Source of the DNA: Planoprotostelium fungivorum
Lineage: Eukaryota; Evosea; Variosea; Cavosteliida; Cavosteliaceae
Reading direction: 5' to 3'
DNA length: 64,000 bases
Assembly: GCA_003024175.1 (NCBI GenBank)
Contig: MDYQ01000042.1
Span: 85,227-149,226, forward strand
Made by a program: the position numbers and the translations under genes. Shown in pieces: positions 1,138-7,613 of the stretch. A model generated the notes under the pieces. That model was not told where the DNA came from, did not search any database, and saw nothing but the letters and a program-made list of their open reading frames with translations. Positions within the stretch are counted from its first letter, which is position 1. Each line of letters begins with the position of its first letter.

Positions 1138-1776
1138 CTATTTCTTTCTCTTCTTGTTCTCTCTCTGTTTGTTGGTGGTCGCGACCTTCTTGGGCTCCTC
1201 CCATCCTTGTTCTTTCTCATCCGTCTTCTCTCCCTTCTCTTCTCCTCCCTTCTCTTCATCTTGATCGGTCAAAGCATGGTTGATGAAACGATTGGCGGCG
1301 GCAACATTCAATTTCATGGACGCTGTTGGAGTCAATCATAAGATAAAAGTCGAACGAGACTCACGTTTGTCTGTGGCGGACTTGATCTTGTTCATGTATT
1401 CTCTGACTCTCTCCTGCATGTGTTTAGTATCGGTGGTGATGAGATGTTGCACGTACCAACTCTTGCTTCACTGGGTGTTCCAATGGGTTCTCACCTTTCA
1501 CTCGGAGAAAAACTGAAGTGATCAGCGATTCGATTGATGAGGAGGACATCACGAACCAAAGTACAGAGAATGAAGAGTATATGCCATCAGAGTTAATAAT
1601 TTGGCCTGGTCGGTAGCCTCTAATGAATCTGCAATCTGTGCGGGTGTTTTGGTGGCGAGCGTAGAGAGGCATTGTTCGACTGATGCGATTGAATCGGCAA
1701 GATCGTATATCAGGTCAGAGTTTTCCTCGTCATCCTGAGCCAAAAGAGGTCTCTTCGGTCGGGTTTCTGTCATCAC
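1138..1776 (-). CDS. C1D/LRP1-type exosome cofactor (Sas10/Utp3/C1D family)
   Basis: Small nuclear RNA-binding cofactor of the exosome and Rrp6 in rRNA and snoRNA processing (family role). The first exon begins at ATG 1776. It carries the C1D core (SIASVEQCLSTL, QAKLLTLMAYTLHSLYF) and is interrupted by short GT-AG introns. The next exons give EHPVKQEL, then ERVREYMNKIKSATDK, then AAANRFINHAL, which matches the conserved C1D order. The C-terminus is a Lys/Glu-rich basic tail ending KKRKK, as in homologues. It is convergent with the dynein gene. The neighbouring minus-strand kinase fusion ends at 1962, leaving only about 185 bp between them. Confidence 0.85.
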
Positions 1777-1961
1777 TCCGATGTATGATAATGTTCTCGT
1801 GATGTTCTTCGTTGTAAAGCACGAAAACGACTCCCACTATTTCACGATATTTCTCACGTGTGTAAAGAAGCACCTCTATCACAATCATGAAGAGAAACGA
1901 ATCACACCAGGTGGCAACGATCACAAGCGAAGAAATAGAGCAACGAAAAAGAATATATCTA

Positions 1962-4900
1962 TCACACAGCAGAGGAAGGAAACTTGACCCTCAGTTCTTG
2001 CAACCTTGACAACAACTCGGTCGAGTCCGGTCTCCTCTCCACGTCCTTCTCGATGCATTGTTTGTGGATGTGAAATATGGCAGCGAACAGTTCGTCCTCC
2101 TGACACAAAGTCGCCACGTTCTCTGGGTACTAGTCTGTGATCAGCCACCGACAATGGAGATGATCATCTCACCTTTGGAGGGTTTCCTGCTTCGATGTAA
2201 TCGAAGAGCTCGTTGTTGTTCATCCCACAGTTTCGGTAAGGAATGTCCAATGTCATCAGCTCGTACAGCAGCATTCCAAACGACCACACGTCGGCCTTGG
2301 TGGTCAGTCCCTTTGGTTTTCCAGAGCATTTTCCAAACACTGAAGAGTGATTAGATGATGAGATCAGAAGAGATCAGATGAGATCAGATGGAAAGTTGTC
2401 TTTACCTTCAGGGGCTCTAAACTCTGTGGTTCCCAGATTGCACTTGGAGATCACTTCATTGCGGCTGGAGAGCTCCTCGGCTTCACCAAAGTCGCCGATC
2501 TTGAATGAAAGTGAAATCTTGTTGTTCTTCACCGATTTGACCACAAAGACGTTCTCGCTCTGCCCTCGTCATCCACCATAATAACAGCTTCTATCTCACC
2601 TTGATGTCCAAATGTGCCACAGGCCGGGGTAGTGTGTGCAAGAAGACTAACCCGTGAGATATCTGATCCATTCAGACTCGAACAGAACATCGACCTCACC
2701 TGCATGGCCAGCTCTAAGATCTCCTCGCTAGAGAAGTTGGTCTGCGTCTCCCTCTTCTTATCAATAAATGAGTGAAGACTCTCCATGTAGAAAGACATGA
2801 AGATGCAGATCTCTTTTCCGGGCTGAGACGAATGTCCCAAGTACTTTGCAATGTTGGGATGCTCCGGGATATTGCTCATGATGCGAATCTCCTTCTTGAT
2901 GGAATCCAACATCTCCTCGCAGCAGTCACGAATGTCGAACCTACGTCGTCTCAGCTCTCTCGTCCTCACTTGACGCTCACCATTTGACCGCGATGGTGAA
3001 GCCCTGTAAGACTGCACGGAAGATACCGGATGCCGATCCACCCTTCCCCAGGGGCTCGTTGAAATCGATGTCCGCCTCGTCAAAGTTGATGACGTAGGTC
3101 TTGGGAGAAGCAGTGAGAGAATCTGCACCGGTTACATCTTGTTCACTCTTCTTTCGGAAGAAGGAGCCGTTTCGGAAGAATTTGAGGGGGTTGGACACCT
3201 GTGATCGTCAGACGAAATTGAGTCCTGAGGGCTTCACCTTCGTCTTCTCCTTCTTCGGTGAGCGAGTTGGAGAGGTCACGTTGAAGGGTGAAGTGTTGGT
3301 GGCGGGGGAGGAGGGTGCGCTGGCTTTCGGAGGAGAAGAGATGCTGTTGACCAGGGAGGGAGAATTCTCGTTGGAGCAATCGGAATTGGACAGAGACCTC
3401 GCGGGTGACCTGAAAGAAATGAATAAAAAGATGGGATTTCGAAATTCACTTTTGTCCCTGATCTAAGAGGGAAGTGTAGCTGGTGGACAAGACTTGAGGT
3501 TGCATGGCCAAGGCAAGTCGTGATGACATCCTCTGCAGTTCGTTGTCGAAGCGGAGTGTGACGGGCTTCAATTGGATGTCCGCCGGGGGGAAGTTGTACC
3601 TCACTCGCTGGGAGTCTGTGAACTTGGTGATGAGACGGTGAGTCTTCTCGGTGTTGGGCTGCACGATGAGAGCGTGTAAGTCTTGTTTGGTGAGGACACT
3701 GAAATCGTTCAGATCGTGAGGGAGGAGGACACTCACAGGTAGGGGATGTATGGCGCTTTCGCGGTCGCGATCGCAGTTCGCAGATTCTTGAAATCGCTCT
3801 CTGCGGAGGTGAGCTCCTGCAGTTCGGCGTACATCTTGTTGATCTTCACCGGCTGTCTCTTGAATGCCTGATGAAACGTAAATTGAAAAGATTTCATTCT
3901 CTATCGTCACCTCCTTCAGCCTGGACATGATCTGACCCCTCAGAGACAGCACGGCGACAGCGGTGAGCTGAAAGTTGTGGAGGGATCTCAACTCTTTCGC
4001 GAGCTCGATCATCTTACCGACCATACCGACCACGTGGTGGACGTCGCATTCCAATATAACGGTGAGAATCCAGCGAGAGAAGTGGATCGAATGCTCCTCG
4101 ATGGCTTGTATGACCTGAAGTTGTGAGTCATCATGATGGGGTGATGGGTTATCCTCTCACTTCGGTTCGTCTGCCACTGGCGTATCCCATCAGATCGTCG
4201 CTCTTGATCTTCCTGAAATCTCTCGCCAATTTGAGTGTGATGGCTCTCGCGTAATCTCCCGTGTTCACTTTCAAGAAACTTGGTTCTTCCGTCTCCACCT
4301 GCGGCTGGCGATGAGAGATGATCGACATGGATGGGAGCATCACCTGGAACGAGCGGACGGAAACGGTCTTCTTTACGAGTCTCTTGTTCTTGTAGCGGTT
4401 GACGGTCTGCTTGTGTAGGTTCTGCATAAATTCCGCGGCCGATTTCTCATCGAGGACACCTCTGACGAAGATGTGGATCAAGATGATTGCGCTGCGAGTC
4501 ATCTCAGAGAATCTCTTGTTGTCTGCAAAGAGAGCACGGATGAGACGCAACGTCTTCTTCTGGACCTCTTCTAGCATCTTCCTCTGCTCGATGAAGGCGA
4601 TCCGATCGACACAACCCGTCGACTTCATAGAATATCTTCGTGGGTCAGAGGAGAAGATGAAAGATGGATCACCTCTTCACGAGTTTCATCACGAGCTGCT
4701 CTGGAGGGCAAGATCCACAGAGAGGGCTGTCGATGAAGTTGTTGATGACTTCTTCGTCTGAAACGGTTGAGTTGAGAGTGACATCGTGTGCGACCCTACC
4801 TAAGGTTCCAAAGGGCGAGGTGAGTTTCTGGATGGCACCATTGATGCCTGACAAGAGTGCGTCTGCGCTCTCTCCCGCCTTGATCTCGGATGGAAGATCG

Positions 4901-5500
4901 TATTCAGGCTCTTCATCTTCCTTCTGCTTGCTCTCGGCGCAATCTGTGAGACATCAGACCATTTGGAAACGGACTCAGGGGGACTCACAACTGGTGGAAT
5001 AGAAAGAGTAGAATCCCTCCCAGAGATATCTGATCAGACGTAAGGAGAAGATAATATACATGATCCTCACCTGGTTTTAGAGAGACGATGGAAGAGCTTG
5101 CATACTGCGGAAACAGCGACAAGATCGACCATCTCTAGTTGTGAAAAGATGCGAAGGAGTAATGCCTCGTCTAGAAAGAGGATGGTCATATGAAAGTCCT
5201 TCTTGAAATTGGAGGACTCTAAGATAGATACACGTGATACGCGAGAAGGTGATACAGTGGTTGAGAGAGAGTGAGCATCTTGTGAATTATGTAAAAGTCT
5301 GATTTGGTTCTTGGTCGCCTCTAAATCAAGTTTGAGGCGGTGAATCTCGCTCATCTTTTGAGAGCCGCGGACCTCTTTGATTCTCTGCATATCGATCTCT
5401 GAAAGAGGATTATTCATCGTATAGAAGGAAAGAACTGACCTCTCTTGACGGGAACATCTTTCAGTTCGTCCTTGAAGAGTCTTCTTGAGACAGACGCCAT
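1962..5500 (-). CDS. F-box / RasGEF_N / RasGEF (Cdc25) / protein kinase fusion protein
   Basis: One continuous spliced frame links four modules. ATG is at 5500. An F-box-like helix region (ALLLRIFSQLEMVDLVAVSAVCK) is at about 5090-5170. A RasGEF_N region follows (DEEVINNFI, QRKMLEEVQKKTLRLI) at about 4520-4770. The Cdc25 catalytic domain (DYARAITLKLAR, AKELRSLHNFQ, HDLNDFSVL) lies at about 3480-4270. After a Ser/Pro linker, a kinase (about 3120 to the end) shows the G-loop GKGGSASG, the beta3 lysine AVKW, HLDIKSEN in the catalytic loop, DFG, GTTEFRAPE and RRPDSTELL near the C-terminus. The kinase residues needed for activity are present. The join between RasGEF and kinase runs through introns at about 3412-3450 and 3197-3236 without a frame break. 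Expected role: Ras activation coupled to phosphorylation, with the F-box suggesting an SCF link. This is inferred from domains. Confidence 0.82.
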
Positions 5501-5836: not shown

Positions 5837-6929
5837 TTACATGACCAAGGCCAAGAGAGCAGCGGAAGCTACAAAGAGGGGTGCGATGATGGAGCTGGAG
5901 CCGGTGTTGCCGGTGATGGTTCCGGTGACACCGCTGACGGTGGTGAAAGTGCTCTTGGTTCCGTCGCTGGTTTCGGTGGGGGTCACCACGGTGGTGAAGG
6001 TGCTGCTGGTGGCAGCGGCGTCGGTGTTGGAGGATGAGGTGGAGGTCGACGATGTGACAGTGGAAGAGGTAGATGAGGTAGAAGAGGTGGAAGAAGTGGT
6101 GGCAGCCAGGAGATCAGTTCCGTTGTAGATGGTCTGGATCTGCTGGGCGGACAGCTCGACGTTGTAGACTCTCAGCTCATCGAGAGCTCCGTGCCATGCA
6201 CCTCCACCGTTGACGGCGGCACCGTTGGCGGTACCTCCCACGGTGACGTTCTTTCCAGAGTTACCGTTGAGACCGACGTTGGCGAAGGTCTTGGTGTCGT
6301 ACTGCACACCATCGAGGTAGACGGTCACTTGAGTGTTGGTGACGGTGACGGCGACTGTAGAAGGTGAGATGAGAGATGGAAGGTGCGGTCTCACCGTGGT
6401 GGAAAGCATCGGCGACGTACTGGGTGGTGAGGGCAGGGGTGTTGTAGACGTTGTCACCGGGGAGAACGACGGTCCACTGCTTGTTACCGACGTTGTATTG
6501 GAGTTCAAGACCCTGAGCGTCGTTGTAATTGTTCTTCTGAGAGATGATCTACATCGTTGAGTCGTGATTCACACATTGGACAGGTGTCACCTTCATGTAG
6601 GAATTGTCGGGGGTGGCTGAAGCGATGATCGAGCTGTCGATGGAAAAGAAAGAGGAGATGGTGAGAGGGGCGACGAAGGACCAGTCTCCAGCGGTGAAGT
6701 AGAGATCAGTGGTGGCTCCGTTGGGGTTGAAGCGTGTGGCGTTGTTGAATTTTCCTACGATGGAGGTGGGGGCTCCTGCGACAGTGGGGGCTCCTCTGGT
6801 GAAAGCTCCCTCGTCGGTGCCGGGCACGGAGTCGAAAGAGTAGCGGAGCTGGAGGTTGCTCGCTGAGAGGATCTGAGCGGCACAGATGGCCAAGATGGCA
6901 GAGGCCAAGATGAAGCGAGAGGTGTGCAT
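5837..6929 (-). CDS. Secreted or membrane-anchored LamG/concanavalin A-like domain protein
   Basis: ATG at 6929 starts a signal peptide (RFILASAILAICAAQILS). A LamG-like beta-sandwich follows (LQLRYSFD, WTVVLPGDNVY, VAVTVTNTQVTVYLDG, GALDELRVYNVELSAQQI), of the concanavalin A-like lectin/glucanase superfamily. Next come a Ser/Thr-only stalk of about 60 residues and a hydrophobic C-terminus (APLFVASAALLALVM) typical of a GPI or membrane anchor signal. Two introns (about 6545-6590 and 6357-6396) restore the frame. A likely role is cell-surface or matrix binding; the ligand cannot be inferred. A larger paralogue-like gene with two LamG domains lies at 16296-18933. Confidence 0.78.
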
Positions 6930-7613
6930 GTCGTTGGTGTGGTACTTGCTGGCTGTTCGCTGGGGCGAGAATGAGGTTCGGACCGGGAAACCCCTTCCTA
7001 CTTGCGTGCGGAGTTTTCCATCGGTTTTCACGTTACAGTTCTGATCTCAATCTTTTCCACCGGTTGAGAAGTTACATTCAGCAGAACGTCCTCGCCACCT
7101 TGTCTCTCTCCCTACGAATCAACGGAGCAAACCTCTAAGAATAGACGAACCTCGTATGAGTTCACGAGGGACGAAGACAACCACCAACTGATTTTATCAC
7201 AACACCATGTGGCTCCGAGCCAGTGAAACGGATCGGGTGACTCCAAGAGAGACCCGAGTGCCTCGGCTGGAATCCGTTATCCTAACTCACAGACACACTC
7301 CTCTGAGACGGAGGAAGTGTGGAGCCTTGTTTTGTTTCACGCTGTCAATAGTCCTAAATTCTGAAAGGGTTTACCCCTGACACCCGTCACAGAGAGTTAA
7401 AACTACACAAGCACAAACTTTCCGGTTCGTGCTGAACACCATCCGATCATCACACGAGAGCCGATGTGCAAGAAGAGACAGTGAAGAAAGACAACAGCAT
7501 TTGAGAAGACCGTCTGCATGTGACGCTGGCACTAGAGTCACATTCGATCATCATCATCATCGGGAAAGACAGAAGGAAAGAGGATAGAACAAGAGGAATA
7601 TATTGTATTGAGA
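6930..7613. other. Intergenic, 684 bp
   Basis: Upstream of the LamG gene (promoter side) and downstream of the acidic nuclear protein gene. I looked for tRNA-like cloverleaves around 7200-7320, where short complementary GC-rich segments occur, but found no A and B box pair with a proper anticodon stem. Nothing else supportable is seen. Confidence 0.4.

Follow-up and report, generated by a model that had tools for sequence, protein, structure and literature searches.

The window analysed here, a stretch of 64,000 nucleotides from Planoprotostelium fungivorum, carries on its (-) strand a gene running from an ATG at 5500 to a stop codon that ends at 1962, exactly the extent given in the initial annotation. 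According to the splice model, the gene consists of 15 exons and 14 introns of 37-66 bp, with GT-AG borders throughout, and encodes a protein of 980 aa, hereafter the window protein (Table 1). The introns suspected from the letters alone correspond to 3449-3410, 3237-3199 and 5070-5030 of this model.

Table 1 Features of the gene in the window (positions are those of the window; residues are those of the predicted protein)
Feature	Position	Strand	Residues (aa)	Basis or remark
Whole gene	1962..5500	(-)	980 in total	15 exons; splice model and orthologue alignment
Exons 1-5	5500-5440, 5398-5071, 5029-4989, 4943-4673, 4635-4161	(-)		splice model
Exons 6-10	4114-3911, 3867-3737, 3698-3450, 3409-3238, 3198-2981	(-)		splice model
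Exons 11-15	2940-2700, 2662-2600, 2559-2406, 2339-2173, 2129-1962	(-)		splice model
N-terminal stretch before the F-box	5175..5398	(-)	21-95	by eye rich in helix; shorter in the orthologue
F-box	5014..5174	(-)	96-135	split by intron 5070-5030; Pfam and solved-structure matches
Putative REM-like (RasGEF_N) region, divergent	4272..4758	(-)	206-355	sub-threshold match in the orthologue; SOS1 alignment
RasGEF / CDC25-type domain	3644..4253	(-)	362-522	PF00617
Position of the catalytic helical hairpin	3590..3750	(-)	500-540	lacks the aromatic and acidic residues of the signature
Ser/Pro-rich linker between GEF and kinase	3150..3449	(-)		in-frame Met absent from aa 570 to 726
Intron 8	3410..3449	(-)		40 bp, GTGAAT..TTTCAG; read-through meets an immediate stop if unspliced
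Protein kinase domain, predicted TKL type, non-RD (HLD)	2007..3060	(-)	691-966	PF00069, PF07714

Four modules had been proposed for this gene; the F-box, the RasGEF domain and the protein kinase scored above their Pfam cut-offs, while RasGEF_N did not reach threshold. The F-box was recognised by F-box-like (PF12937; E 9e-9, 35.4 bits against a cut-off of 24.3, aa 100-135; 36.5 bits in the orthologue described below) and by F-box (PF00646; E 2.6e-6, 27.5 bits against 20.5; 30.7 bits in the orthologue), and solved structures matched it as well, namely an F-box chain (1fs1_A, E 0.0041) and Skp2 (1fs2_A, E 0.039). The RasGEF domain gave E 8.8e-25 and 88.1 bits with PF00617 (cut-off 23.1; 93.7 bits in the orthologue), and the kinase gave E 2.3e-35 with PF00069 and 5e-32 with PF07714. 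RasGEF_N (PF00618) had no match in the window protein at E ≤ 10 and reached 17.7 bits (E 0.0043) in the orthologue, below the cut-off of 28.3. When compared with other REM domains, a two-sequence profile of this region scored 15.97 and did not stand out, one of 20 shuffles scoring higher. Because SOS1, among the solved structures, aligns over residues 220-563, covering REM plus CDC25 (phmmer, E 3.3e-6), a divergent REM region likely precedes the RasGEF domain, and the presence of RasGEF_N as such is weakly supported.

A search through 5.8 billion proteins, in which 7990 candidates were scored, yielded a single full-length relative, P0001 (EukProt transcript TRINITY_DN8681_c0_g2_i3.p1), with an ORF of 917 aa labelled complete and 49% identity to the window protein over 97% of the query. 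Its order of F-box, REM-like region, RasGEF, linker and kinase is that of the window protein. A search for the same order in related genomes had been suggested at the outset, and this transcript from another source indeed combines F-box, RasGEF and kinase; the domain order is conserved across at least two sources. P0001, known as a transcript only, differs in its shorter N-terminus and linker. Of the 14 splice junctions it bridges 12 gap-free in a 12-column window, with identities of just 3, 4 and 3 of 12 at junctions 5, 7 and 9, respectively; junction 1 lies outside its coverage, and the alignment has a gap at junction 8, the one near 3450. Between M569 and M727 the window protein has no in-frame Met, and M727 already lies C-terminal to the kinase lysine K716. 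The (-) strand between 3480 and 2913 has just two ATGs, both out of frame, which if unspliced run into a stop after 1 and 5 codons.

Given the orthologous transcript and the lack of a usable Met before the kinase lysine, we take the fusion to be one gene; judged from sequence, it is almost certainly a single fusion gene, and for practical purposes this can be regarded as established. The initial claim that one polypeptide holds F-box, GEF-like and kinase parts is accordingly well supported by Pfam, the orthologue and the missing Met, with RasGEF_N as its weak member. A model of two adjacent genes, in which the kinase would be a gene of its own behind an F-box-RasGEF gene that ends near 3450, would draw on the stop that exon 8 meets immediately if intron 8 is not spliced, on junction 8 having no confirmation from P0001, and on a sister locus (C45) where an F-box-RasGEF frame comes to a stop and a different kinase frame follows on that strand. 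However, P0001 holds every part within one ORF, its alignment crosses the other covered junctions gap-free, and no ATG would be usable before K716 unless translation started at M561/M569 in GEF exon 8, with intron 8 still spliced; nor was a close stand-alone homologue of the kinase found (three matches at E ≤ 1e-5 among 543 candidates, the best at 30% identity). We therefore judge the two-gene model very unlikely. When the N-terminal part of P0001 was used as the query, the matches were P0001 itself and one RasGEF protein, P0011 (7987 candidates scored). No AATAAA, ATTAAA or AGTAAA occurs on the gene's strand between 1500 and 5600; such a signal is also missing behind the real stop (1500-1962), so its absence carries little weight.

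To place the gene within its own genome, the assembly (36.9 Mb, 471 contigs) was searched, and 128 exon-level RasGEF matches at E ≤ 0.001 were merged to 72 clusters, some of them duplicates. Scored candidates numbered 134 of 1388 for the kinase, 150 of 245 for F-box-like and 150 of 205 for F-box, and the resulting counts are lower bounds. Among the kinase and F-box matches listed, the window gene is the only one of the 72 clusters that unites F-box, RasGEF and kinase. Among the matches listed (150 of 245), only the window gene and C45 have an F-box-like match on their own strand at a distance of up to 8 kb, and C136 has one within that distance on the opposite strand; the second F-box model gave, by eye, an equivalent picture among the matches listed (150 of 205). 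A full-length search (47 of 89 candidates scored) found no second copy of the full protein.

Several loci were considered as further fusions and set aside. C45 comprises F-box, RasGEF_N and RasGEF, and its GEF frame runs into a stop codon, which AATAAA follows at about 30 bases; the kinase frame, which by eye resembles PDK1, begins later, and the two appear to be separate genes. C461 (kinase, RasGEF_N, RasGEF and a cNMP-binding domain, PF00027 1.6e-12; GbpC-like) and C149 (kinase, RasGEF_N, RasGEF) were rejected as second fusions of this type since the kinase precedes the GEF in both. At C444 kinase and F-box lie about 2.3 kb apart, with linking exons not seen in the frame list. C206, a candidate, has a kinase motif about 3.7 kb upstream of its RasGEF. 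The head-to-tail arrangement at C45 (L059, GEF gene at 1175-3071 and kinase frame from 3462 onward) offers a possible picture of how such a fusion could originate. For comparison with the 72 RasGEF clusters, some of them duplicated, the available text of PMC1273635 gives Dictyostelium discoideum at least 25 RasGEFs. The number of RasGEFs, together with the GbpC-like gene, would fit an amoebozoan. Equal-scoring RasGEF matches were seen in inverted orientation on C290 (8136-8775 (+) and 12201-12840 (-)), which may reflect a duplication or an assembly palindrome, and between C4 (104893-105383) and C329 (58255-58745), perhaps haplotypes or duplicated contigs.

The lysine, HxD, DFG and APE motifs first noticed in the kinase are all present in the translation (K716, HLD814-816, DFG841-843, APE867-869), together with E734, K818 and N821, and the kinase is predicted to be active. 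Among solved structures B-Raf is nearest (5.6e-22), and the best matches are B-Raf, the TKL kinase CTR1 and MLK, with NEK1 and WNK1 also within the best 60 of 1888; by these relatives it would be of TKL type. RAF kinases are defined by a Ras-binding domain and a C1 domain N-terminal to the kinase. No Pfam match to RAF-type Ras-binding/C1 domains, or to Roc/COR of the Roco or GbpC type, was found in the window protein at E ≤ 10. "RAF-like" is to be understood here as TKL, since Dictyostelium, according to the accessible part of PMC1420674, has 66 TKL kinases and no RAF orthologues. The nearest kinase relatives in the same genome are C1 and C107. The C107 kinase resembles that of the window protein (LGTGGSGASVYRCSLQGFTCAVK vs LGKGGSASGIFRAVLQGFTIAVK; 31-39% identity), but C107 (L050 3159-6211 (-)) is without F-box or RasGEF and has RCC1 repeats in a nearby exon (PF00415 3e-12), an association of these repeats with the window kinase's local family for which one-gene status is only a candidate.

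Comparison with P0001 revealed unequal constraint along the protein. Identity was 209/298 (70%) in the kinase, 34/56 (61%) in the F-box, 103/211 (49%) in the GEF, 61/136 in the REM region and 26/87 in the linker. F-box and kinase are more constrained than the GEF, and among the folded parts conservation is lowest in GEF and REM. A predicted structure of P0001, built on a two-row alignment, was discarded (mean pLDDT 32.5).

SOS1 opens Ras with a helical hairpin, where interference with Mg and the alpha-phosphate comes from L938 and E942 (PMC10470544, available text). At this site the window protein reads QDLHALIV, with neither an aromatic residue nor an acid, and P0001 reads KDLSGITD, with no aromatic and one acid. 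The canonical signature of an aromatic plus acids is absent from the window protein and eroded in both orthologues, taking a different form in each. An ungapped alignment puts a D of P0001 at the SOS E942 position, and HMMER's SOS1 alignment moves the window residues by one, so that hairpin placement is uncertain by one residue. The RasGEF core segments LHNF, SRLKEAF, DFKNLR and PY are intact or nearly so in both orthologues.

The comparison of hairpins covered 20 RasGEF clusters out of the other 71; eight of the 20 are the genome's best RasGEF matches, and the remainder were taken partly from candidate or similar loci. Fourteen, recognised by a regular expression and by eye, were tabulated and used to train a hairpin HMM; six were held out. 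An acid at the position of SOS 941 or 942 is found in all 14 tabulated clusters, and in 13 it is accompanied by the aromatic; at 942 itself 11 have an acid and the other three a T, and a plain INF/INY/VNF return occurs in half (7/14). Among the held-out clusters the HMM was clear for L045, L008, L040 and L046 and partial, and unclear, for L042; L047, not above noise, reads DIIHNEE..INY by eye. Altogether, the signature or a near variant is clearly retained in 18/20, while the HMM did not report the window protein and gave P0001 -1.9 bits. An argument from T935, a computed hot spot of SOS in the available text of PMC8623491, was dropped because T stands there in only 2/14 other clusters and gives no separation.

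Taken from sequence, this erosion would lower the chance of exchange activity without removing it. The positions of SOS L938 and E942 are occupied by T and H in Candida Cdc25, which is hyperactive, and the E942 position by A in budding-yeast Cdc25 (both from the available text of PMC10470544); because of the Candida enzyme, a dead GEF is unproven. The initial statement that the protein activates Ras has become doubtful: the signature is eroded in both orthologues, although the SOS L938/E942 equivalents are dispensable in Candida Cdc25.

The reading we prefer, with a probability of just under one half, is a Ras-docked, SCF-linked kinase; an active exchange factor ranks behind it. The CDC25-like domain would bind a Ras-family GTPase, whether or not it exchanges nucleotide, and bring the kinase there, the GEF-like module serving as a docking or specificity part. 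The F-box would contact Skp1-Cul1, through which the protein itself, or a partner that its kinase has phosphorylated, might be passed to ubiquitination. This reading fits a hairpin signature eroded in both orthologues, unlike 13/14 tabulated clusters, and the presence of F-box, RasGEF and kinase above their Pfam cut-offs with kinase motifs intact. The Cdc25 substitutions in both yeasts weigh against it, as do the three of 14 GEFs from the same genome with T at the SOS E942 position and the D kept there by P0001, where a shift of one residue is possible. Recruitment of SCF is predicted from the F-box match, but F-box proteins are able to act without SCF. The "self-contained switch" initially pictured is an inference.

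It is quite possible, though doubtful, that the protein is an active Ras exchange factor also bearing a kinase and an F-box, which activates Ras, phosphorylates a partner and is turned over by SCF. A RasGEF match of 88 bits, the preserved core segments, the tolerance of Candida Cdc25 and the precedent of GbpC (below), with GEF and kinase in one chain, argue for it; the GEF is, however, less conserved than kinase and F-box, and its hairpin is eroded where 18/20 other clusters clearly retain theirs. Conversely, the GEF-like part might be a passive remnant with no Ras partner, leaving simply an F-box kinase, as the low conservation of GEF and REM among the folded parts and the differing erosion of the two hairpins could suggest. 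We consider this quite improbable: the reading frame and 49% GEF identity have been kept between the sources, which points to some constraint on the GEF-like domain, and its Pfam score is well above cut-off in both orthologues. A specific form of SCF-linked action, also unlikely, is a "self-priming" SCF receptor, whose CDC25-like domain would grip a Ras-family GTPase without exchange; the kinase, by phosphorylating it or a neighbour, would write its own degron, and delivery to ubiquitination would fall to the F-box. Such a protein would turn Ras signalling down, not on.

That the add-ons occur separately in amoebae, as originally stated, agrees with the literature, in which each pair of parts has a precedent. 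GbpC (RasGEFT) of Dictyostelium holds RasGEF_N, RasGEF and kinase in one chain, for which intramolecular activation is reported, but its kinase lies before the GEF, it has LRR-Roc-COR, DEP, GRAM and cNMP domains, and no F-box is named in the available text (PMC6320773, PMC3188802); Physarum has GbpC homologues (PMC4758236, available text). A Dictyostelium RasGEF with two F-boxes (PMC1273635) shares F-box and RasGEF with the window protein, as does C45; both are without the kinase, the former as described in the accessible part of that source, and the C45 hairpin, unlike that of the window protein, is canonical (RDVIYHEE). MEKKalpha of Dictyostelium combines F-box and kinase and its stability is ubiquitin-regulated, but it carries WD40 repeats where the window protein has RasGEF (PMC5666861, in part). 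In the available text of a survey of dictyostelid regulators, F-box and kinase domains are often attached to GTPases, GEFs or GAPs (PMC8923023), and in that of a survey of cyclic-nucleotide domains both domain terms occur under separate families (PMC2246266). No description of F-box, RasGEF and kinase in one protein was found in the literature searched, seen in part and with most subscription journals outside it. The window gene is a new combination of familiar modules.

The surprise is moderate, as each part is familiar by itself and amoeba RasGEFs are well known to carry varied additional domains. It usually takes separate proteins to connect Ras control, phosphorylation and ubiquitination, and a natural three-way fusion offers a direct one-gene test of how amoebae wire them. 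If kept for binding, a RasGEF-like domain whose hairpin is eroded would be a pseudo-exchange factor, to our knowledge a rarely described class. Next to the fusion gene, the frames at 5837-6940 on the (-) strand read by eye as a secreted protein whose stalk is rich in Ser/Thr and whose C-terminus is hydrophobic.
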